A stretch of 64,000 nucleotides of DNA from a virus: positions 186,001-250,000 of IMG/VR virus record IMGVR_UViG_3300042907_001080; one strand, written 5' to 3'. The notes under the pieces were generated by a model. It was given only the letters and a program-made list of their open reading frames with translations, was not told the DNA's origin and did no database searches. Of this stretch, positions 38,225 through 52,422 are shown in pieces. A program made the translations under genes and the position numbers. Each line of letters begins with the position of its first letter. Positions within the stretch are counted from its first letter, which is position 1.

Positions 38225-39400
38225 TTATTGCACTTTAAGTAGCACAGTATCTTCGTTGATACGACCGTTGAGTTTGATATCTACGGCCTTGATATCGTCT
38301 AGAAACTTGCGTAACTGCACTTTACCTGCAGCCTTGAACTCTTTGAGCTGTTCTTCGGGCTTGCGCAGAGTTTTCTGCACACTTTTTATTGGATCAAATC
38401 CAATAACTGTGGTGCCTTTGACTGCAAGATCGCTGAATTCAGCAGCCATATATTTGCCCAATTTGCGTGTTTTGACATTAAAGATCCACAGTTCCTTGGC
38501 TCCGATGATGTCTTGTGGGTTGATAGACACTAATTTAAGTTTTTCATCCTGCTTGAGATACTTCATCTTGGCCACAACTTTGGCCTTGTCAGTGGGCTTT
38601 TTAGCACGAGGCTTTTTATTAACCTTAGCCTCTTGTGCTAGCATATCACAGGCTGCAAGAATTTCGCTATAGAACAGCGTGATCTTCTTTAGATTGGCCT
38701 TGCTCAAATGACTATAACCTTCTTTCAATTGCTCGTCTTTGGTAGTGGCTGCTTCCACTAATTCGTCATAGTTTCGACTGTATAGTGTTTTAATGATTCG
38801 AGCGTGAGCGGCCTTGGCTTGGCGTCCACGTAGAAGATTTAGAAGTTTAAATGCTTTTGGATCAAATGCATCTGGATCTGTTTGAAAAGCTTCAATAGCA
38901 TCTTCAATCTCTTCAGTCATGCCTATTGCAACTTCACGCAGTCGTTCTTGGATGCTAGGAGTACACACTGCGGGTTTGACCTCCACTGCACCTTCTTCGA
39001 GTTCAACTTCGTCATGTTTACCTTCTTCGATGATCTTAGCAATGGCTTTGCTTAACCATTCTGCGGTATTACGGCCCTCGTTGAAGTCTGCTCTTACTGC
39101 TGGCATACCTTTGAGTAAGTTGGCAGCAATGGCACCTACGGTCGTGCCGCATCGATTGTCTTTGGTATCTTTGAATGCTTTAATAACATCTTTTGGATAG
39201 TTCTGGCTGCTCATCCAATTAATAACTTTGGGTTTGAGTTCTTTGCCGCTGGTTTCCAAACGATAATAACTCATAGCCATCCGGAAATGTCGACTGAACT
39301 GGTCAGCAGTCATGATCTCGTGGTCGTCCCATTTTGGACTTAGATCACGTCCTTTGTTTTGGCGGATATCGATACTTGCTTTTTTCAGTTTGGTTACCAT
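38225..39400 (-). CDS. Conserved marine-myovirus protein of unknown function (391 aa)
   Basis: A 391-residue soluble, Lys-rich protein. Segments such as KWDDHEIMTADQFSRHF, SYYRLETSGKELKP and NLLKGMPAVRADFNEGRNTA are familiar from marine T4-like phages but have no assigned function. A basic stretch near 262-277 (NKKPRAKKPTDK) suggests nucleic-acid contact. I start at ATG 39400, which follows AGGAGT; an upstream Met would place the promoter inside the gene. It has a near-consensus sigma70 promoter and its own terminator, so it forms a single-gene early unit and is probably made in quantity. Confidence 0.75.
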   Translation of the reverse strand: MVTKLKKASIDIRQNKGRDLSPKWDDHEIMTADQFSRHFRMAMSYYRLETSGKELKPKVINWMSSQNYPKDVIKAFKDTKDNRCGTTVGAIAANLLKGMPAVRADFNEGRNTAEWLSKAIAKIIEEGKHDEVELEEGAVEVKPAVCTPSIQERLREVAIGMTEEIEDAIEAFQTDPDAFDPKAFKLLNLLRGRQAKAAHARIIKTLYSRNYDELVEAATTKDEQLKEGYSHLSKANLKKITLFYSEILAACDMLAQEAKVNKKPRAKKPTDKAKVVAKMKYLKQDEKLKLVSINPQDIIGAKELWIFNVKTRKLGKYMAAEFSDLAVKGTTVIGFDPIKSVQKTLRKPEEQLKEFKAAGKVQLRKFLDDIKAVDIKLNGRINEDTVLLKVQ

Positions 39401-39431
39401 AGAGTCACTCCTGTTGTTAAACAATACATAT

Positions 39432-39460
39432 ATTATAGCACCAAATGATGAACATGTCAA
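39432..39460 (-). promoter_or_regulatory. Consensus sigma70-type promoter (TTGACA-17-TATAAT)
   Basis: Minus-strand TTGACA at 39455-39460, 17-nt spacer and TATAAT at 39432-39437, an exact match to the bacterial consensus. The -35 box overlaps the 3' end of the 64-aa gene. The leader to the 391-aa gene is about 25 nt and includes its AGGAGT site. Confidence 0.88.
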
Positions 39461-40779: not shown

Positions 40780-41616
40780 TTATGTCCATAGACTATCTCG
40801 GGCTTTGATAAGGCGGATCATCATAGCTTCATCTTCGGCCGCATATTCTTCTTCAATCTTCTGTAGCAGTTCGTGTGATCGTGTGCTGAGTTCTTCAAGT
40901 TCGGGAGTCTTCTTGCTGCCAAAAAGTCTGCCATCGTTGAGGAGTCGTGCCTTTTCACAGTATTCAGTCCAGCCGCTGACATCATAAGGATCAGGACGAT
41001 TACGATAAGTCACAGTCCACCATAGGTAAAGTTCTTTGATCTCTTTTGCACGAAGAGCCTGTCCTGTAGGTTTGCCGTAGTCTAGATGATCTGGTTCACA
41101 CCAATCAGTGTTAGTAAGAGTCATAGCCCAATCTAAATGATCAATGCCTGCTTGAGGACAGCGCCAAGTGCGCCAACGGAACCAACCTGTAGCCCAGAAA
41201 GGTGCCTTATACTTTGCCTTATCTTCTTCGCTACCCCAAGCAATATGACTCCATGCTTGTTCTATTTCAACAAAGTCTACAAGTTCGTTGAAGAGGCAAG
41301 GAAGGAACCGGTTGCCCACGTCGCACCAGTTACCGGGCTTAATATCGCGAGGGTGAGCGGTAAGACTATGAGTGCGACTAACCCAACGGTTATTAATGTA
41401 ATACTTAACATCGTAAATCTTTCTAACAGGCCAGGTGACAAAATCTTGGATATAGCTTAGGCCTTCTTCAGCTAGCCAATAACGGACAGGATGATAGCGT
41501 TTGGCTTCATCTTCCCATTCGGCCCAGCCGTCCGAGGTTAGCGCACCCTTTTTAGGTGTGCCTCGAACCCAATCTGCGAACGGGGAGCATGACCAGTAGT
41601 TTGTGTGTTGTGCCAT
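40780..41616 (-). CDS. Conserved marine-myovirus protein of unknown function (278 aa)
   Basis: A Trp-rich 278-residue soluble protein. Its blocks WSCSPFADWVRGTPKKGA, YINNRWVSRTHSLTAHPRD, GNWCDVGNRFLPCLFNEL and WATGWFRWRTWR are strongly characteristic of an uncharacterised protein of marine T4-like phages. No catalytic motif is recognised. It is the first gene of an early unit: a perfect sigma70-type promoter ends 9 nt before the ATG and there is no visible ribosome-binding site. Confidence 0.78.
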   Translation of the reverse strand: MAQHTNYWSCSPFADWVRGTPKKGALTSDGWAEWEDEAKRYHPVRYWLAEEGLSYIQDFVTWPVRKIYDVKYYINNRWVSRTHSLTAHPRDIKPGNWCDVGNRFLPCLFNELVDFVEIEQAWSHIAWGSEEDKAKYKAPFWATGWFRWRTWRCPQAGIDHLDWAMTLTNTDWCEPDHLDYGKPTGQALRAKEIKELYLWWTVTYRNRPDPYDVSGWTEYCEKARLLNDGRLFGSKKTPELEELSTRSHELLQKIEEEYAAEDEAMMIRLIKARDSLWT

Positions 41617-43769: not shown

Positions 43770-43961
43770 TTAGGCCTTGGCTTCTTTGCGGGCGTTTTTT
43801 TCTTCTGTGATTTCATTGCGACGAGCTTTAACTGCTTTGCCTACTTCTTGTAATGCTTTGCGAGCACGGGTGCCTGCGGCATTGTTACCTGCTGCAAATT
43901 TTGCGTCTTCTGCCAAGAATGCTTCCATTGCTGCTTTTAATTGTTCTACTGTGTTTGACAT
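43770..43961 (-). CDS. Hc1/histone H1-like DNA-binding protein (63 aa)
   Basis: A 63-residue basic helical protein with A-G-N-N-A-A-G-T-R-A-R-K-A-L-Q-E near 24-39 and a Lys/Arg-rich tail (EEKNARKEAKA). This matches the N-terminal part of the bacterial Hc1/histone H1-like family (x-G-N-K-A-A-x-x-R-x-R-K). It probably binds DNA and may compact phage or host DNA. The ATG has a TAAGGA site. It follows the tRNA-like gene, from whose sigma70 promoter it may be transcribed. Confidence 0.75.
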   Translation of the reverse strand: MSNTVEQLKAAMEAFLAEDAKFAAGNNAAGTRARKALQEVGKAVKARRNEITEEKNARKEAKA

Positions 43962-44175: not shown

Positions 44176-45156
44176 ATGACACAAGACTTCACAAAGATAC
44201 CATTCCATAACATAACAAGATTTGGTCAACGCACCATGTTGCATCGCCCGTTATTTTCTACCAGTTGGATTTTGGGCCGTTTCTGTAATTATAACTGTTC
44301 TTACTGTTGGCCCTATGCTAGATCGGACAAGGTAGATCACCAGCCTTTAGAAGTATATACTAATACTGTAGATGAAATCAAACGACAGGCTCGACTAAAT
44401 GGCTTCAATGAATTCCATTGGAGTTTCAGTGGCGGTGAACCTACTGCTTACCGACAGCTACATGATTTGATTAAACACCTTGACGAAACAGAAAGCACAT
44501 ACCAAAGTATACACATGACAACCAATTTAAGTCCTGGAAGTAAATGGTGGAATACCTGGTGTGCCAACACAGCATTACTACAACGCAGAAGTATCACAGC
44601 ATCATTTCATGATGAGTTTGCTCGAGAGCAGGAATTCGGTGACAAGTGTCTACAGTTATTGCATGAGCGTGTGCATGTCACAGTCAATCAAGTAATGGTC
44701 CCGGAAAAGTTTTATGAGCTTTATGAACGCATGTCTCGGCTACATGCTCGTGGAATCAATGTTACGCTCAAACCGCAAAGTGATCCTACAGCGAGTCGTG
44801 TAGTCGATGGCTACACAACAGAAATGATTGATCTATTACAGACTGGATTTCCTCAAACATCACAAGGCGAAGACGTTTATCAAATAGCATTGTATGATAC
44901 AGACAACAAAGAATATTTGTTCGATCAAGCAGAAAGATTTAATGCTTTTGGTTTTAACAAATTCCAAGGTTGGAGTTGCAATAGTGGGTATCAAAGTGTT
45001 ATAATAAGAGGTAATGAAGTGAAACGATCATATAGCTGTCACGACCGACTATTAGGAACACTAGAGAGCTTTGAGCTTTTTAAAAAACCAACAGTTTGTA
45101 TAACACCTAGTTGTGTCAGCAGTGCTGATTCAAAGATACCAAAATGTATAAACTAG
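44176..45156 (+). CDS. Radical SAM protein 1 (SPASM-like C-terminus)
   Basis: A 326-residue radical SAM enzyme. The [4Fe-4S]/SAM motif CxxxCxxC is C37-N-Y-N-C41-S-Y-C44, followed by the G-G-E motif in WSFSGGEPT. The barrel strands H-M-T-T-N and T-A-S-F-H are visible. The last 80 residues have several cysteines (W-S-C-N-S-G, Y-S-C-H-D-R, V-C-I-T-P-S-C, K-C), suggesting a SPASM/twitch-type auxiliary cluster domain. Such enzymes generate a 5'-deoxyadenosyl radical, often to modify peptides. No substrate can be named. It opens the plus-strand operon; the next gene overlaps it by 13 nt. Confidence 0.9.
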   Translation: MTQDFTKIPFHNITRFGQRTMLHRPLFSTSWILGRFCNYNCSYCWPYARSDKVDHQPLEVYTNTVDEIKRQARLNGFNEFHWSFSGGEPTAYRQLHDLIKHLDETESTYQSIHMTTNLSPGSKWWNTWCANTALLQRRSITASFHDEFAREQEFGDKCLQLLHERVHVTVNQVMVPEKFYELYERMSRLHARGINVTLKPQSDPTASRVVDGYTTEMIDLLQTGFPQTSQGEDVYQIALYDTDNKEYLFDQAERFNAFGFNKFQGWSCNSGYQSVIIRGNEVKRSYSCHDRLLGTLESFELFKKPTVCITPSCVSSADSKIPKCIN

Positions 45157-46121
45157 AAAACATAAAAGACATACATCTAGAATTAACAAGTAAGTGTCAA
45201 GCACGATGCCCAATGTGTCCTCGCCGAGTTAACGGAGGGATACTAAATCCTATTATGTCGTTAAATGAGATAACACTAGAACAATTTAAAGAATGGTTCT
45301 CAGATGAATTTATAAATCAACTGGATAGTCTGTTTATGTGCGGCAATTTAGGTGATCCTATTATTGCTGAAGATTGTTTAGAGATATTTCAATACTTAAA
45401 AGAAACTAATCCTAACATACGATTGAGCATGCATACAAATGGTAGTGCTAGAAATATACACTGGTGGAAAAAATTAGCAAAGTATAAAGTTAAAGTTACA
45501 TTTGGAATAGACGGTTTAGAAGATACACACAAGTTATATCGAATAAGCACTAATTGGAACACCATTATAAAAAATGCCGAGTCATTTATAAAAGCTGGCG
45601 GCGAAGCAGAATGGCACATGTTAGTGTTTAAGCATAACGAACATCAAATTGAAGAATGCCGTGCGCTAAGTCACAAACTTGAATTTAAAAAATTCACAAC
45701 CAAGCATACTAGTCGTTTTAAAGATAACAAATTTCATGTATTGGACGAAACCGGCAAGACTGTTAATATTCTTTATCCTACTAAACTTAGCACTTCACAT
45801 ACAGTAAATGTGTTGTCAGTATTACCAGCAGAGATACAATGCAAGGCAAAGAAATATAGTCAACTATACATAAGTGCAGACGGAGGAGTTAGTCCGTGTT
45901 GCTGGTTGGATTTTTCCTGGCAGTTGCCTAACCAGGACAATAGAATAAATTATATGGATAAAATTGGAGTTTATCCTAACCTAAATAAACAGTCGTTAAT
46001 AGATATATTTAATTCTGGTTTCTTTAGTAAGATTGAAAGTACCTGGTCAGCCGTTCCTTTAATGGAATGCGGCAAACAATGTGGACATTTTGATAAGCTA
46101 GGAGAGCAATTTGTTAGTTGA
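45144..46121 (+). CDS. Radical SAM protein 2 (SPASM-like)
   Basis: A 325-residue radical SAM enzyme with C18-Q-A-R-C22-P-M-C25 and an L-F-M-C-G-N-L-G-D-P segment in place of the usual GGE motif. S-M-H-T-N-G and V-T-F-G-I-D-G-L are barrel strands. Near 250 there is a G-V-S-P-C-C-W motif, and C-G-K-Q-C-G-H near 312-318, the pattern of a C-terminal SPASM domain. This layout resembles peptide- or sugar-modifying radical SAM proteins of marine phages. Substrate unknown. It overlaps both neighbours (13 and 11 nt). Confidence 0.9.
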   Translation: MYKLENIKDIHLELTSKCQARCPMCPRRVNGGILNPIMSLNEITLEQFKEWFSDEFINQLDSLFMCGNLGDPIIAEDCLEIFQYLKETNPNIRLSMHTNGSARNIHWWKKLAKYKVKVTFGIDGLEDTHKLYRISTNWNTIIKNAESFIKAGGEAEWHMLVFKHNEHQIEECRALSHKLEFKKFTTKHTSRFKDNKFHVLDETGKTVNILYPTKLSTSHTVNVLSVLPAEIQCKAKKYSQLYISADGGVSPCCWLDFSWQLPNQDNRINYMDKIGVYPNLNKQSLIDIFNSGFFSKIESTWSAVPLMECGKQCGHFDKLGEQFVS

Positions 46122-46704
46122 TACAGAACACTTACATCACTGGATGCAAGCCATAAGACAAAGCCCAGATCCTATGAGGACCATGGATGCATTCTGGTCT
46201 GGACAACTTAAAAGCAAAGAATGGTTGATCTCAAATTTAAGAAAACACATTAATAAATTTGTAGGTATTGATATACATGGTGGCTGGGTTGGTGTACTAG
46301 CCAGTATGTTGTTCCAAAGTGATATCCCTATTATTAATATTCGTAGTGTTGATATTGACCCTACCTGCGAATCTATTGCAGTTAACATGAACAAGATTGA
46401 AGAAATGGTTGGCAAGTTTCGTGCTGTCACAGCAGACATGTGTGCTCTTCGCAGTGATGCAGATGTCATTATCAACACCAGTTGTGAACACATAACACAA
46501 GACCAATATGACATATGGTTAAGCGGAATGCCACATAGCAGCCTACTAGCATTGCAAAGCAATAATTATAATATAGATGAACATGTTAGGATTGCTAACA
46601 GTTTAGAAGAGTTTAAAAAACAATGCCATCTGGACAATATTTTGTATGCCGGGGAACTTGATTTGCCGTTGTACAAACGATTTATGATTATAGGAAAACA
46701 ATGA
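46111..46704 (+). CDS. SAM-dependent methyltransferase-like protein (197 aa)
   Basis: A 197-residue class I methyltransferase-like protein. F-V-G-I-D-I-H-G-G-W-V-G-V-L-A (motif I region), R-S-V-D-I-D-P (motif II) and V-I-I-N-T-S-C-E-H-I (motif IV region) are in the right order. This type is common in marine T4-like phages and its substrate is unknown. The start is a TTG at 46111, seven bases after a strong AGGAG site and overlapping the preceding stop; the first Met (residue 12) has no such signal. Ends in ATGA overlap with the next gene. Confidence 0.75.
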   Translation: MLVDTEHLHHWMQAIRQSPDPMRTMDAFWSGQLKSKEWLISNLRKHINKFVGIDIHGGWVGVLASMLFQSDIPIINIRSVDIDPTCESIAVNMNKIEEMVGKFRAVTADMCALRSDADVIINTSCEHITQDQYDIWLSGMPHSSLLALQSNNYNIDEHVRIANSLEEFKKQCHLDNILYAGELDLPLYKRFMIIGKQ

Positions 46705-47435
46705 TAGAATTAGGGTTAGTTAAATGGTATAATGACGCAAAGAGATACGGGTTTATTAAAGCAGACTCGGATGGAGAATCTATTTTGGCACAGAGTCATT
46801 CTATTGTGGAAGAACCAAAGACTTTGAGAGAATTTCAACGTGTAACTTTTGAAAGATATGTAACTGATAATGGCCTAGAAGCACGTACTATAAATATCGC
46901 CATGAACCCAGATTTATCGATTTACGAACACGAAGTTATATCATTGAAAAAACAACGACTTCATCTTTCTTCATTTGTAGGACATGTCTTATTAGTGGTT
47001 AATACTGCCAGCCGATGCGGACTTACACCTCAGTACGAAGGATTAGAAAAATTATTTCAAAAATATAAAGATAAAAAATTTACAATCCTGGCATTTCCGA
47101 CAAACAATTTCGCAGGACAGGAGCCTAATACAAATGCCGAAATTTTAGATTTTTGTGAGACAAATTATAATGTAAGTTTTTATGTTATGGAAAAATCAAA
47201 TATTGTAGAACAGGATAGTTCAAGCCCTGCACAATTCGCCGAAACTGCACCTAGAGAAATAAATTCTTTTTATAAAGACCTTGCCACCAGAACAAATGTT
47301 TTACCGCAGTGGAATTTCCACAAGTATCTAATTAATCGTACGGGTTCTATTATTAAAAGTTTTGATCATTTGACTCAACCAGACAATGATGTATTAATTA
47401 ACGCAATCGAAGAATTTTTGGATAGTAACGTATGA
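46701..47435 (+). CDS. Cold-shock domain fused to glutathione peroxidase
   Basis: A 244-residue two-domain protein. Residues 1-66 form a cold-shock OB fold with GLVKWYNDAKRYGFIKADSD and an I-L-A-Q-S-H-S-I second RNA-binding strand. Residues 72-244 form a complete glutathione-peroxidase domain: catalytic C106 (SRCGLTPQY), Q140 (AGQEP), W204 and N205 (WNFHKYL). The resolving-Cys position in F-P-C-N reads F-P-T-N. The peroxidase reduces peroxides using thiols. I know of no standard family with this order of domains. A perfect late promoter inside the gene ends 5 nt before Met68 (see separate entry). Confidence 0.88.
   Translation: MIELGLVKWYNDAKRYGFIKADSDGESILAQSHSIVEEPKTLREFQRVTFERYVTDNGLEARTINIAMNPDLSIYEHEVISLKKQRLHLSSFVGHVLLVVNTASRCGLTPQYEGLEKLFQKYKDKKFTILAFPTNNFAGQEPNTNAEILDFCETNYNVSFYVMEKSNIVEQDSSSPAQFAETAPREINSFYKDLATRTNVLPQWNFHKYLINRTGSIIKSFDHLTQPDNDVLINAIEEFLDSNV
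46889..46896 (+). promoter_or_regulatory. Internal perfect late promoter (TATAAATA) before the GPx domain
   Basis: Exact TATAAATA inside the fusion gene, with 5 nt (TCGCC) to the in-frame ATG at 46902 (Met68), right at the domain border. The geometry matches the sites before SOD and kdsA. Its use would give a leaderless mRNA for the peroxidase domain alone. Confidence 0.6.
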
Positions 47436-48358
47436 AAATATTAATGACTGGATCATCGGGATTTATCGGATCTCACTTAGCACCACTTTTAGAAAAAGAC
47501 CACACAGTTCATCATCTCAAAAGCGATCTAACAGATCACAAGAGTGTTCAGCTAGAAGTAGCTTCTGTACAACCAGATATCATTGTGCACCTAGCTGCAC
47601 GTACAGAAGTAGAACAAAGCTTCTATGAACAAATTACCTTTAGTGAAATAAACTATATAGGAACAGTTAATTTAATTGAAGCAGCCGCCTCTGTTAAAAA
47701 TTTAAAGAACTTTGTGTTTGCTAGTACTATGGAAGTTTATGGTTGGCAACCTATTAGTGATACTGTAAAAAATGGCGCCATACCTAAAGTATTTGAAACA
47801 TTTGATGAGAACACTCAGCCTAACCCCAATGCTCCTTATTCTGTAGCCAAATATGGATGTGAGAAATATTTAGAATACGCTTACAGATGTTATGGATTGC
47901 CATTTACTGCTATACGTCAAACAAACAGCTATGGTCGTAAAGATAACAAGTTTTTTGTTACAGAACAAATTATTAGTCAGATGCTAGAAAATTCCAAAGA
48001 AGTAAATCTTGGATATGCTGAACCATATAGAAATTTTATTTTTATTGACGACCTATTAGATGCTTGGATTACAGTTATTACAAATCCTGATAAAGTAAAC
48101 AGTGGACTAATACTTACTATTGGTCCTGATGCTCCTATAAAGATTAGGGATTATGCACAAAAAATTGCCAAAAAATTAAACTGGCAAGGAACGATTAATT
48201 GGGATACTAAATTGTTCAGGCCTGGGGAGATTTACTGGCTTAATAGCAATCACAATCTAATAACTAAATTAACTGGATGGTATCCTAAAGTCAGTTTAGA
48301 CGAGGGGCTAGATCAAACTATTAAAATCTGGAAAGAAAAATATGATAGTAGAACATAA
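47432..48358 (+). CDS. NAD-dependent sugar-nucleotide epimerase/dehydratase
   Basis: A 308-residue extended SDR. The Rossmann motif GSSGFIG is at 7-13, H-L-A-A near 53-56, S-T near 94-95 and the active-site Y-x-x-x-K in P-Y-S-V-A-K-Y near 135-141. The R-Q-T-N-S-Y-G block and C-terminal F-R-P-G-E segment are typical of NDP-sugar epimerases/dehydratases (GalE/GMD type). It likely converts an NDP-sugar; the exact reaction is not clear. It overlaps its neighbours by 4 and 17 nt. Confidence 0.9.
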   Translation: MKILMTGSSGFIGSHLAPLLEKDHTVHHLKSDLTDHKSVQLEVASVQPDIIVHLAARTEVEQSFYEQITFSEINYIGTVNLIEAAASVKNLKNFVFASTMEVYGWQPISDTVKNGAIPKVFETFDENTQPNPNAPYSVAKYGCEKYLEYAYRCYGLPFTAIRQTNSYGRKDNKFFVTEQIISQMLENSKEVNLGYAEPYRNFIFIDDLLDAWITVITNPDKVNSGLILTIGPDAPIKIRDYAQKIAKKLNWQGTINWDTKLFRPGEIYWLNSNHNLITKLTGWYPKVSLDEGLDQTIKIWKEKYDSRT

Positions 48359-48974
48359 GTTAAACGATGTACCGAGAATATCTGTTTTTGATAATGTACT
48401 ATCTGCTGAATTTTGTAGAGGTATGATAGAAAAACATTCCAATGCTGGAATGAATTCTAATTCTGGTTATCAAAGTCGTGTTGAGTCGTATGCCCAAGTT
48501 ACAGAAGAAGTTGAAAATAGAGGAATTAGTCTAGGTGTTGATCCCTATGATTATGATATAATAGCAACAGCTATTGTTAATGTTGCTAAAATTCCATATT
48601 CTCACATAGAGGCTATTGATATTTACAACTATCACGAAGGACAGTATCTAGCTTATCATCACGATTACTGTTATGACCCTAGACAAATCAACTATTATAA
48701 AAACGGTGGCGACAGAGTTGGAACCGGTATTTTTTATTTTAATGATGATTTTGTAGGCGGAGAAACTTATTTTCCTAAATTTGATGTATCTATTACTCCT
48801 AAGACTGGTTCCTTTTTGTATTTTGAACAATGCTATGACGAAGCAACTAATTGGGACACAATACACGAAAGCAAACTAATTACCAAAGGAACTAAGTGGA
48901 TCGCTAGTTGCTTTTTTAGTGATAGGCCTAGAGTAGGATGGTCTAGTAGAGATCATTTGTATGCTAACGGATAA
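48342..48974 (+). CDS. Prolyl 4-hydroxylase-like 2OG-Fe(II) oxygenase
   Basis: A 210-residue P4H-type protein. The facial triad is H106-x-D108 (A-Y-H-H-D-Y) and H175 (D-T-I-H-E-S), and a Lys near 182-185 (K-G-T-K-W) would bind 2-oxoglutarate. GIFYFNDDFVGGETYFP and PKTGSFLYF are typical P4H strands. These enzymes hydroxylate proline or other residues in peptides. Substrate unknown. It lies between an epimerase and a kinase-like gene, overlapping both. Confidence 0.88.
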   Translation: MIVEHKLNDVPRISVFDNVLSAEFCRGMIEKHSNAGMNSNSGYQSRVESYAQVTEEVENRGISLGVDPYDYDIIATAIVNVAKIPYSHIEAIDIYNYHEGQYLAYHHDYCYDPRQINYYKNGGDRVGTGIFYFNDDFVGGETYFPKFDVSITPKTGSFLYFEQCYDEATNWDTIHESKLITKGTKWIASCFFSDRPRVGWSSRDHLYANG

Positions 48975-49665
48975 TTGGATTCCTTTTTACAAATATAATG
49001 ATCAAGGTGTGCCTGGATGCATGTCTCAGCAAACCTATGAACCGTTAATAAATCCGGAAGGAACTGTATACTGTGCCAACTACGATCATAATAATCTGTA
49101 TCAACGTAAATGGCAACCAGACCGTGTGGGTTACACTCAAGACATTGTTGAATATTTTTTTAACAAAGAAGTTGGATATGCACACAAATTTAGCAACAAG
49201 CTATGGGCGCCGGAAATTATAGATATAGATTATGTTAGCAAACGTATTTTTTATAAATGGTATGGGCCCACTTGCAACGAATTAATATATACAGGCAGAA
49301 CTTTACCATCTGATTGGAAATTACAACTTCGAAATATCATGATGGATTGTTATAATGAAGGAGTTTACAAACTTACAATGTATCCACATTGTCATTACTA
49401 TGATAACAGCGGAATTATGCACACGCTAGATATGTATGGGTGCGTTGAAGTAGATGATCCGTTTATTGAAGCAAAGTATATGGATGGGATAATTCACGAA
49501 ACCGCTAAATTTAGACTAGACGAGACCGGACCTAAAAACAATAATAGATATGATTTAGAAAAAATGTTCTTCAATAGTTTATGCACCCACGTAAAATGGG
49601 GAGAATGCGATTTAAATTTTGTCTATCAAAATATAATTGGAGATAGCGATGAAATATATAGGTAA
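48961..49665 (+). CDS. Degenerate kinase-like protein, copy 1 (234 aa)
   Basis: A 234-residue protein whose middle follows the C-lobe of small kinases/phosphotransferases. P-E-I-I-D-I-D-Y-V-S-K-R-I-F-Y-K-W-Y-G resembles a hinge. NEGVYKLTMYPHCHYYDNSG and I-M-H-T-L-D-M-Y-G-C resemble the catalytic loop (HxD...N) and DFG regions, but without a clear catalytic Asp. It shares this layout with the 231-aa protein at 60250-60945. It may be a pseudokinase or bind a nucleotide or substrate. It overlaps the next gene by 17 nt. Confidence 0.5.
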   Translation: MLTDNWIPFYKYNDQGVPGCMSQQTYEPLINPEGTVYCANYDHNNLYQRKWQPDRVGYTQDIVEYFFNKEVGYAHKFSNKLWAPEIIDIDYVSKRIFYKWYGPTCNELIYTGRTLPSDWKLQLRNIMMDCYNEGVYKLTMYPHCHYYDNSGIMHTLDMYGCVEVDDPFIEAKYMDGIIHETAKFRLDETGPKNNNRYDLEKMFFNSLCTHVKWGECDLNFVYQNIIGDSDEIYR

Positions 49666-50281
49666 CTGCGCAGATAAAATAGATTGGAATGAAGTAATTA
49701 AATTATGCCAAGAGAGCGTAACAGGAGATAGAAACACTGTGGTCTCTGTGGTTGAAAGATCCGAAGTTAATTTACAGAATCGAGAACCTATGCAGGCCAA
49801 GGTTTTATTGTCGGTAGCAGAACAAATAGCCAACGAACAATTGCTTCAAGAGTATAGAAAAGTGATAGGAGATTGGCGTGATGCTGGATGTGACCTGGAT
49901 AAAATTTATTGGTATGATTACTATCCAGGGGATCATTATCCAGAAAGTATATCAGATACATTTGCTGCCATACTAGGAATTCGCCCATTAAGAGTTTTTG
50001 TAAGTGAAGTATATCCGGGTATTACAGTTCCCTATCACTGGGATGTAGAAGATAAGGGACCAGAATGGTTAAAAAAATACGGAATGCTTTATAGATATAC
50101 CTGCTGTATAGATGTGCCGAGGGTCGGAAGTGTATTAATCGTTGACGATCATTGTTTATATGATTTTAAGCAAGGAGACATTTTTGAATGGGATAGTTAT
50201 AGAAACTATCATTCAGCTGCCAACGGCGGCGAACACATACAGTATTATTTTCACATGTTAGGATATAAAATAAAATGTTAG
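49649..50281 (+). CDS. Aspartyl/asparaginyl-hydroxylase-like 2OG-Fe(II) oxygenase, copy 1
   Basis: A 210-residue protein. It starts MKYIGNCADKIDWNEVIK, a segment shared with the next gene. The double-stranded beta helix has H130-W-D132 (VPYHWDVED) and a distal His near 191 (N-Y-H-S-A-A-N-G-G), the facial triad arrangement of Asp/Asn beta-hydroxylase-like enzymes. I start at ATG 49649 because it follows GGAG at good spacing; the longer frame begins with TTG. Substrate unknown, possibly a peptide or amino-acid derivative. Confidence 0.8.
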   Translation: MKYIGNCADKIDWNEVIKLCQESVTGDRNTVVSVVERSEVNLQNREPMQAKVLLSVAEQIANEQLLQEYRKVIGDWRDAGCDLDKIYWYDYYPGDHYPESISDTFAAILGIRPLRVFVSEVYPGITVPYHWDVEDKGPEWLKKYGMLYRYTCCIDVPRVGSVLIVDDHCLYDFKQGDIFEWDSYRNYHSAANGGEHIQYYFHMLGYKIKC

Positions 50282-50820
50282 AAAGAGTTGGTAACTGTTC
50301 AAAAATTATAGATTGGAACGAAGTTATAAAAGAGATTGCTGAACAACGACCGGCCTATATCGGACCTAGCCACAAGGAAGATGATCCAATTCCGGGCCTT
50401 AAAGAAGTAACAGATTTGTGGAAGCGTTCGGGATTCAAAACTGTTGCTGATGGTGGAACAGTGGAATGGGACATGTTTTTGCCTCATACAAATTTTAATA
50501 TTTCTATCGCTGAAAAATTTTGTGAGTTTGTTGGATTGAAAACGTATACAAGCTGCTGGATTAGTAGAATAAATCCTGCACGTTGCTCACCTTGGCATTG
50601 GGATGTCCATGACGATGAAGTAAATTTATCTCAAAGAACAGACATAGTTCGATATCATTGTCATATAGGACAACCGACACACGGTCATGTTTTAATAGTA
50701 GATAATTTTTGTTTATATAAACAGCCTCAGGGAGAAATATATAAATGGCCATCTAGAACAACTTGGCATTGCGGATTAAACAGTGGGCTAACTCCGAAGT
50801 ATCTTTTTAATATATGGTGA
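50275..50820 (+). CDS. Aspartyl/asparaginyl-hydroxylase-like 2OG-Fe(II) oxygenase, copy 2
   Basis: A 181-residue relative of the preceding protein. Its N-terminus (V-G-N-C-S-K-I-I-D-W-N-E-V-I) is nearly the same. The triad residues are H108-W-D110 (SPWHWDVHDDE) and a distal His near 166 (T-T-W-H-C-G-L-N-S-G), with the strand HGHVLIVDNFCLY. The two proteins have diverged elsewhere, so this is an old tandem duplication. It overlaps the previous gene by 7 nt. Confidence 0.8.
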   Translation: MLERVGNCSKIIDWNEVIKEIAEQRPAYIGPSHKEDDPIPGLKEVTDLWKRSGFKTVADGGTVEWDMFLPHTNFNISIAEKFCEFVGLKTYTSCWISRINPARCSPWHWDVHDDEVNLSQRTDIVRYHCHIGQPTHGHVLIVDNFCLYKQPQGEIYKWPSRTTWHCGLNSGLTPKYLFNIW

Positions 50821-50824
50821 TGAT

Positions 50825-51025
50825 ATGATCAATGAAAAATACAGTAATGAAGATGTTCCTATTCAAGATACATTTTATATGCAAAAGTTTATGGAGATTC
50901 AACGTCAAAATGTTGTATTATCAAATAAACTACGAGACTTATATGAAATTCTTGAGATCCGTGATGTTGTAGAAATGCATTTTGGGGATAAGTTTTTTAA
51001 TATCTTAAATGATACACCTGCATGA
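50825..51025 (+). CDS. Small helical protein next to twitch radical SAM gene (66 aa)
   Basis: A 66-residue protein, mostly helix with a heptad-like pattern (VLSNKLRDLYEILEIRD). No family was recognised. Its TGA overlaps the ATG of the 466-aa radical SAM gene (ATGA), so the two are translated together. Candidate roles are a substrate peptide, a recognition partner or a subunit. It lacks cysteines, repeats or a leader-like Gly-Gly site. Confidence 0.65.
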   Translation: MINEKYSNEDVPIQDTFYMQKFMEIQRQNVVLSNKLRDLYEILEIRDVVEMHFGDKFFNILNDTPA

Positions 51026-52422
51026 ATAAAATTAAACACTGGCAAGAGAAAATTGAATCAGTATCAGGAAGCAAAACTTTTTGCATATTGCCCTGGATAC
51101 ATTTTGCCACACGTCCCAACGGCGACATGCGACTATGTTGTAATGCTAACAGTAGTGGAGCAGGAACGGATCACGAAATTGGTCTAGTAAAAAACGAAAC
51201 AGGTCGTCCTGCTAATTTTGGACGGGAAACTCCTATGAGCGCATGGAACAACAAATACATGCGAGATGTACGTTTAACTATGCTAGAAGGAAAGATTCCT
51301 TCTAGCTGTAGTAAATGTATTGCTGAAGAGTCTAAAGGTGTTGCTAGCAAACGTATTTGGGAAACAGGTACTTGGATAGAAGAAGGTCTTGATGTTGAAG
51401 AGCTTGTTAAACAAACAGAAGAAAATGGAACAATTCCTGAACGTCTTGTTTATCTAGATTTAAGATTAGGACATACTTGTAATCTTAAGTGTGTTATGTG
51501 TAGTCCTCATGATAGTAGCATGTGGGTTTCTGATCATAAAAAGATATATCCTCTATTTCAGACTAAAGAACTTAAAGATCAAATGGCATGGGATCAATCA
51601 GAGTTTAACAATAAATGGCACGAAAATCCAGACTTCTGGAAAGAAATGTATACTCAGATTCCTAATCTAAAACAAGTATACTTTGCAGGCGGCGAACCTT
51701 TGCTTATTAAGGAGCATAAACTGTTCCTTGAAGAAATTGTTAGACAAGGATACGCGGACAAGATCCTTGTACGATACAACACAAATGGATTATTAGTAAA
51801 TGACGAAATTATTGAACTCTGGAAAAAATTCAAAAAAGTTAAAGTAGGGTTTAGCATCGATGCTGTCGGCGACCGTAATTACTATATACGCTATCCTAGT
51901 GATTGGGTTACTATCGAACGTAATCTTCACAAGTTAGATAACACTCCTGGCAACATACAAGTTAGCATTGCCACTGCTATACAAATACTAAACATCAAAC
52001 ACTTGCCTGAACTTGCCAAGTGGAAGATACAACAGAATTTTAAGAAAGTAAACTTTGAAAATATAACTGGTGGAATTGAAGCCGGCGGCGGAATTGTTAA
52101 CATGCACTTGTTGTATATACCCACGTTCTTAAGTATTAGATGTTTGCCTGAATATGATAAAGAACAAGTGCGTAAGAGCTTTGCTGATCTTGCTACATGG
52201 TTGTATACTAACTACAGACAAGATGAAGACTTTTGGAAAAACAATCCTTACGGATGGAAACGCTGGCAGGCAGTATTAGACTTTATGGATGCCGAAGATC
52301 ACACTGCTCAGTTACCTGCATTTGTTGAATATATTGAAAAGATAGAAGCTATACGTGATACAGATTTTGTTAAGACTTTTCCTGAGCTAGCACATTTGCT
52401 ACAGTCCCCAATCTTATCTTAG
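51022..52422 (+). CDS. Radical SAM protein 3 (N-terminal twitch domain)
   Basis: A 466-residue radical SAM protein with a Cys-rich module before the core. C21 (T-F-C-I-L-P-W), C39-C40 (R-L-C-C-N) and C96/C99 (S-S-C-S-K-C-I-A-E-E) form a twitch-type auxiliary cluster domain. The core motif is C153-N-L-K-C157-V-M-C160, with F-A-G-G-E-P near 220-225 and Y-N-T-N-G. This matches the 'N-terminal twitch radical SAM' group, which has no characterised member that I know of. It is the last plus-strand gene of the operon. Its 3' end overlaps the convergent radical SAM gene by 53 nt. Confidence 0.9.
   Translation: MNKIKHWQEKIESVSGSKTFCILPWIHFATRPNGDMRLCCNANSSGAGTDHEIGLVKNETGRPANFGRETPMSAWNNKYMRDVRLTMLEGKIPSSCSKCIAEESKGVASKRIWETGTWIEEGLDVEELVKQTEENGTIPERLVYLDLRLGHTCNLKCVMCSPHDSSMWVSDHKKIYPLFQTKELKDQMAWDQSEFNNKWHENPDFWKEMYTQIPNLKQVYFAGGEPLLIKEHKLFLEEIVRQGYADKILVRYNTNGLLVNDEIIELWKKFKKVKVGFSIDAVGDRNYYIRYPSDWVTIERNLHKLDNTPGNIQVSIATAIQILNIKHLPELAKWKIQQNFKKVNFENITGGIEAGGGIVNMHLLYIPTFLSIRCLPEYDKEQVRKSFADLATWLYTNYRQDEDFWKNNPYGWKRWQAVLDFMDAEDHTAQLPAFVEYIEKIEAIRDTDFVKTFPELAHLLQSPILS

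Follow-up and report, generated by a model that had tools for sequence, protein, structure and literature searches.

A cold-shock domain (CSD) and a glutathione peroxidase (GPx) are joined in a single open reading frame of a T4-related phage, and in related phages the same CSD is fused to a 2OG-Fe(II) oxygenase (OG) that is encoded nearby, a link that is absent from the initial annotation of this DNA. The CSD appears to have changed its partner more than once, and the states before and after the change as well as intermediate ones (OG, CSD-OG, CSD-GPx plus OG, and free GPx) are met within one conserved operon, which makes for a readable case of phages building new multidomain enzymes. The window analyzed here, 64,000 bases in length, covers positions 186001-250000 of a virus record that totals 281,658 bases. 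Among the proteins encoded by the phage is a T4-type gp23 capsid protein (E=5.8e-99). The fusion gene and its parts are:

46692-46695, + strand: Shine-Dalgarno-like AGGA ahead of the CSD-GPx ATG, read directly
46701-47435, + strand: CSD-GPx fusion gene, open reading frame with ATG start, 244 aa
46701-46904, + strand: CSD, residues 1-68 (Pfam PF00313, AlphaFold2 model, NmCsp 3cam profile)
46914-47432, + strand: GPx domain, residues 72-244, thioredoxin-like fold (Pfam, profile and Foldseek)
47016-47018, + strand: codon of C106, predicted peroxidatic Cys, aligning with the Cys of NVASKCG in Hyr1
47118-47120, + strand: codon of Q140, catalytic tetrad
47154-47156, + strand: codon of C152, probable resolving Cys, aligning with the Cys of AQFC in Hyr1
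47310-47315, + strand: codons of W204 and N205, catalytic tetrad

The initial annotation had proposed that one uninterrupted frame connects the two domains, and this is borne out. The frame is open over its whole length and is linked to its neighbors by ATGA overlaps at both ends, with the stop codon of the previous gene at 46701-46704 and with the ATG of the next one at 47432-47435. Both domains score above their Pfam cut-offs, PF00313 on residues 5-65 with E=1.9e-9 (37.7 bits versus a cut-off of 27) and PF00255 (GSHPx) on residues 74-172 with E=2e-29 (101.8 bits versus a cut-off of 27). The closest solved chain to the CSD is NmCsp 3cam (profile E=3.7e-18), while the GPx half matches yeast Hyr1/Gpx3 3cmi with a profile E of 1.8e-40. 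An AlphaFold2 model, calculated from an alignment of 35 sequences, is confident for both domains (mean pLDDT 93.6, pTM 0.85) and predicts a five-strand barrel for the CSD (E2-11, E16-21, E27-31, E47-55 and E58-68) followed by the GPx fold from residue 72. When the modeled protein was searched with Foldseek, the top PDB matches were GPx without exception (2p5q, E=2e-17). A match to the Pfam family Ceramidase was weak, lay far under its cut-off and was discarded.

The domain search for CSD-GPx fusions that had been suggested along with the initial annotation led to 18 IMG/VR contigs, which fall into four sequence groups and reach down to 43% identity. Eleven of the 18 are near-identical to the window, two of these running off contig ends, and the divergent groups share 52-56% (L011/L013), 50% (L016) and 43% (L018) identity with the window. 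In L018, the most divergent fusion, the CSD scores 18.3 bits and thus stays below the PF00313 cut-off of 27. The possibility that the join is a sequencing error, which had also been raised, is ruled out because the fusion recurs in 18 contigs and four groups, including those at 43-56% identity; the joining of the two domains is far beyond chance. The architecture had been described as unfamiliar, and we did not find it elsewhere either. Named phage records match GPx or CSD separately and none of them covers 80% of the CSD-GPx fusion, nor was a CSD-OG fusion found in such records. Among solved structures and in a viral structure library no match spans both CSD and GPx, and the best 80 GPx loci of a genome scan do not include any cellular CSD-GPx fusion. 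Among the matches listed by two more scans for further partners, the CSD was either free or joined to OG or GPx. Our literature search yielded no paper that describes a phage CSD fused to GPx or to a 2OG oxygenase. CSD-GPx is a new arrangement of known, ordinary domain families.

The residues of the peroxidase half fit a 2-Cys thiol peroxidase. C106, Q140, W204 and N205, all named in the initial annotation, are present and, together with C152, invariant across all aligned CSD-GPx homologues, the divergent groups included. C152 is situated 46 residues past C106, about where 2-Cys, thioredoxin-dependent GPx enzymes have their resolving Cys in a helix, with the same spacing as between C36 and C82 of Hyr1, which we take to be the peroxidatic and resolving pair of that enzyme. 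Most likely, peroxide would be attacked by C106, C152 would resolve the oxidized residue as a disulfide, and a thioredoxin-type reductant of the host would then recycle the enzyme. In the 2-Cys cycle, the sulfenic acid formed on the peroxidatic Cys is converted to an internal disulfide that is reduced by thioredoxin or glutathione (PMC9404953). As no thioredoxin or glutaredoxin is recognizable in the phage record, the electron donor would be a host protein; both the donor and the peroxidase activity itself are predicted from sequence. It is a reasonable guess that GPx shields the infected cell and perhaps those enzymes of its operon that are sensitive to oxygen, the radical-SAM and Fe(II) ones.

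The gene resides in a run of + strand genes at 44176-50820, in which it has the following neighbors:

46111-46704, + strand: upstream gene, 197 aa, no family match
47432-48358, + strand: NAD-dependent sugar epimerase/dehydratase (Pfam Epimerase, E=1.6e-40)
48342-48974, + strand: prolyl-4-hydroxylase-like 2OG-Fe(II) oxygenase, OG (Pfam 2OG-FeII_Oxy_3, E=4.8e-9)

For OG, the profile comparison with Bacillus P4H 3itq gave E=3.1e-24. Most genes of the operon have homologues in about 30 related contigs, in varying order. Homologues of the 46111 gene directly precede genes for CSD-OG, CSD-GPx, free GPx or free OG in the relatives. The epimerase gene separates CSD-GPx from OG in the window lineage alone, and its position varies among relatives. 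The larger segment at 44176-52422 is conserved as an operon but reordered in L048, L053, L056, L076, L191, L196 and others, and comprises three radical-SAM genes (44176, 45144 and 51022), the 46111 gene, the genes for epimerase and OG, 48961 and the pair 49637/50275. The 51022 product is a twitch-domain radical SAM protein (NCBIfam NF033640, 406.8 bits). The pair, 49637-50281 and 50275-50820, consists of adjacent paralogues without a Pfam match and is found in almost all related contigs; an HWD motif and His residues downstream hint at another kind of Fe(II)/2OG-like enzyme. The operon is adjoined by a gene for a 63-aa Histone H1-like Hc1 protein on the - strand (43770-43961, Pfam E=2.2e-14), possibly a nucleoid or packaging protein or else a substrate for the operon enzymes. 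Further away, the - strand genes 38225-39460 and 40780-41616 are preceded by good sigma-70-type promoters (TTGACA and TATAAT-like), unlike T4 late genes.

The second partner of the CSD is the oxygenase of this same operon. At about 30 related loci the CSD is fused in one ORF to a prolyl-hydroxylase-like 2OG oxygenase that is 61-81% identical to the free-standing OG of the window. Searches with the window OG revealed four arrangements, namely OG alone without any CSD (L188-L197, 47-49% identity), CSD-OG as a single ORF in the majority of loci, CSD-GPx directly followed by OG (L138, L156, L162 and L165), and CSD-GPx, epimerase and OG in the window and the contigs near-identical to it. A fifth is represented by L218, where a GPx gene without CSD directly follows a 46111-type homologue and the oxygenase, CSD-less as well, is encoded elsewhere on the contig. 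A separate OG gene sits directly after CSD-GPx in L048, L050, L053 and L055; this is the arrangement of the other three fusion groups. EHKL, which forms the linker between CSD and OG in the fused relatives, is found at the very start of the freed OG proteins of the window and L053 (MIVEHKLNDVPRISVF and MKEHKLNSIPRISVF, respectively). In all its fusions, the CSD is N-terminal. L173, L174, L177, L181, L184 and their relatives constitute a further CSD-OG clade with a longer linker and a near-uniform IICEKWH replacing RNP2.

Both the OG trees and the gene order of the operon speak for more than one entry of GPx between CSD and OG. The oxygenases without CSD branch off separately (100/100) and served as the outgroup on which the OG tree was rooted. 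Carriers of CSD-GPx appear in three places of this tree (the window with L138, L156 with L162, and L165), and a single clade uniting their oxygenases was rejected by the AU test (p=0.0004). As to operon order, the gene ahead of CSD-GPx is of the 46111 type in the window, L053 and L055 but of the 50275 type in L048 and L050. The GPx domains of the phages make up one clade (100/99) apart from cellular GPx, in which the free GPx of L218 is sister to the fused one of L018; it is therefore possible that L218 has lost the CSD. GPx was present in five of 21 contigs tested, all of them GPx carriers, and in none of the 16 with CSD-OG or CSD-less OG, which is weak evidence as the contigs are fragments. 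The CSD itself is too short to resolve a tree, and a single clade of GPx-linked CSDs was not rejected (AU p=0.198), so a joint transfer of CSD and GPx is conceivable.

On the simplest interpretation, a phage GPx gene has moved into the junction of CSD and OG repeatedly and acquired the CSD. The CSD would originally have been the N-terminal part of the neighboring 2OG oxygenase. A phage GPx gene would have arrived at the CSD/OG border, having been inserted there or having recombined via the CSD and OG sequences on either side, and would have taken the CSD, leaving the oxygenase with a start codon of its own. The order of events rests on parsimony and the outgroup root, from which we infer the direction of the rearrangements. 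An opposite course, with CSD-GPx followed by OG as the ancestral state and repeated deletions of GPx that fused the CSD to OG, would agree with the monophyly and depth of the GPx domains from three to four groups and is compatible with the CSD tree; yet it demands many precise in-frame deletions dispersed over the OG tree where about three gains would suffice, and the deepest CSD-bearing oxygenases in that tree, L171 and L175, are of the CSD-OG type. We consider it improbable.

What the CSD contributes to its partners can be approached via its conservation. It is under purifying selection: for the pair L011/L013, dN and dS are 0.049 and 1.07 in the CSD and 0.047 and 0.75 in GPx, corresponding to dN/dS of about 0.05-0.07, and since the CSD is as constrained as the enzyme halves it is no decaying passenger. 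RNP1 and RNP2 are motifs associated with RNA binding (PMC7825780). The RNP1 side (Trp9, Lys14, Gly17 and Phe18) is largely retained in fused CSDs, with KRYGFI in the window and Gly17 and Phe18 in nearly all of them, whereas RNP2 (aromatic-x-His-aromatic) is lost, the window having ILAQSH instead. The RNP2 His (H29 of CspB) is found in none of 35 fused CSDs but in 16 of 17 free phage ones; for the aromatic residue after it (F30) the counts are none of 35 versus 14 of 17, and for the first aromatic residue (F27) eight of 35 versus all 17. Most CSD-OG proteins exhibit Glu-Lys-Trp at the RNP2 end. The initial description of an RNA-binding fold is doubtful in the light of these losses, and we call the window domain, going by its residues, a CSD-fold domain rather than a working cold-shock protein. 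The findings point to a subfamily of cold-shock folds in which the RNP2 surface has been rebuilt.

Because RNP2 is lost, RNP1 is mostly kept and the CSD is constrained, we favor a docking or targeting role, the CSD acting as a portable module with possibly weakened or altered nucleic-acid binding. A more specific version is tentative and, in our estimate, rather unlikely as worded: the derived CSD could be an interchangeable docking module that was passed from OG to GPx by insertion at the border several times and directs both enzymes to a common site or partner in the infected cell via the surface on which Glu-Lys-Trp has replaced RNP2. It is likewise conceivable that the CSD is a working nucleic-acid binder that holds the peroxidase or the oxygenase on RNA or single-stranded DNA. 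Fold and family match, the RNP1-side residues and purifying selection are consistent with such a tether, but of the two motifs that define RNA binding (PMC7825780), RNP2 has been lost, its His and next aromatic residue being absent from all 35 fused CSDs, while free phage CSDs mostly keep them, and the Glu-Lys-Trp that stands in its place in most CSD-OG proteins argues in the same direction; we deem a tether of this kind possible and give it limited credence. The stretch might also merely be a well-translated start segment that is inherited by whichever gene follows, the domain as such being without a role. That the CSD is always N-terminal and goes to the enzyme that comes first would be explained in this way, and no reason is known why a peroxidase should carry an RNA chaperone. 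A segment of this sort would hardly have its amino acids constrained like those of the enzyme halves, nor would it be expected to acquire a conserved new Glu-Lys-Trp motif, and we judge a roleless domain decidedly unlikely. Taken as a whole, our preferred account, i.e. one two-domain protein in which a derived cold-shock-fold module from the oxygenase precedes a Cys-type GPx that works as a 2-Cys peroxidase and is docked by that module, appears somewhat more probable than its negation.

The initial annotation further envisaged an internal late promoter of the T4 type, by which the fusion would be made early and a free peroxidase late. It was based on this element:

46889-46896, + strand: TATAAATA in codons 63-66 of the fusion gene, regarded as a chance match

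The box is indeed at the place reported, stopping 5 nt ahead of the in-frame ATG of Met68 at 46902, at the domain border. In the model, the final strand of the CSD extends to Met68 and the GPx fold begins with residue 72, such that a free product would be predicted to fold. The phage has the T4-type capsid protein mentioned above, and a search for the T4 late sigma factor gp55 gave one weak match (E=1.2e-6, 34% over 95 residues). Box and Met are both kept in L016. However, stretches of 16 nt that are equally conserved in L016 occur at several other sites in the gene, and the box is absent from L011/L013 and L018, i.e. from two of the three divergent groups, where residue 68 is Glu and Arg, respectively. 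Nor is it enriched in the genome, with two copies in the window versus 5.0 expected and 12 in the 281,658-base record versus 17 for the reversed string, or upstream of ORFs, as it is present in only one of 33 upstream regions examined. Counts of k-mers in upstream regions show no clear motif that could serve as another late motif of this phage. Met68 lacks a Shine-Dalgarno sequence, while the ATG of the ORF itself has its AGGA. In T4, late transcripts start a few bases after this box, which here would be on the ATG and would leave no leader. We regard an internal late promoter as very improbable.

Several known systems resemble parts of the fusion protein. Cys-type GPx enzymes, such as yeast Hyr1/Gpx3 (3cmi), poplar GPX5 (2p5q) and bacterial BtuE/Gpx, share the fold, the C/Q/W/N tetrad and the spacing of 46 to the resolving Cys; the window protein differs by the additional N-terminal CSD, an insertion after residue 170 and the replacement of the FPCN cysteine by Thr, and it is 44-47% identical to its nearest cellular relatives among the genome-scan matches listed. 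Stand-alone GPx proteins of phages (PHROG 5295, BtuE of uncultured Caudovirales and L218) are likewise products of accessory phage genes but do not carry a CSD. Bacterial Csps (CspA, CspB, CspD and NmCsp 3cam) and free phage Csps have the five-strand barrel and the RNP1 side in common with the window CSD, which in contrast is devoid of RNP2 and fused to an enzyme. The P4H-like 2OG-Fe(II) oxygenases (Bacillus P4H 3itq and, in phages, PHROG 61) include the other partner of the CSD; most of the phage 2OG relatives that we found form one chain with it, whereas the oxygenase of the window is free.
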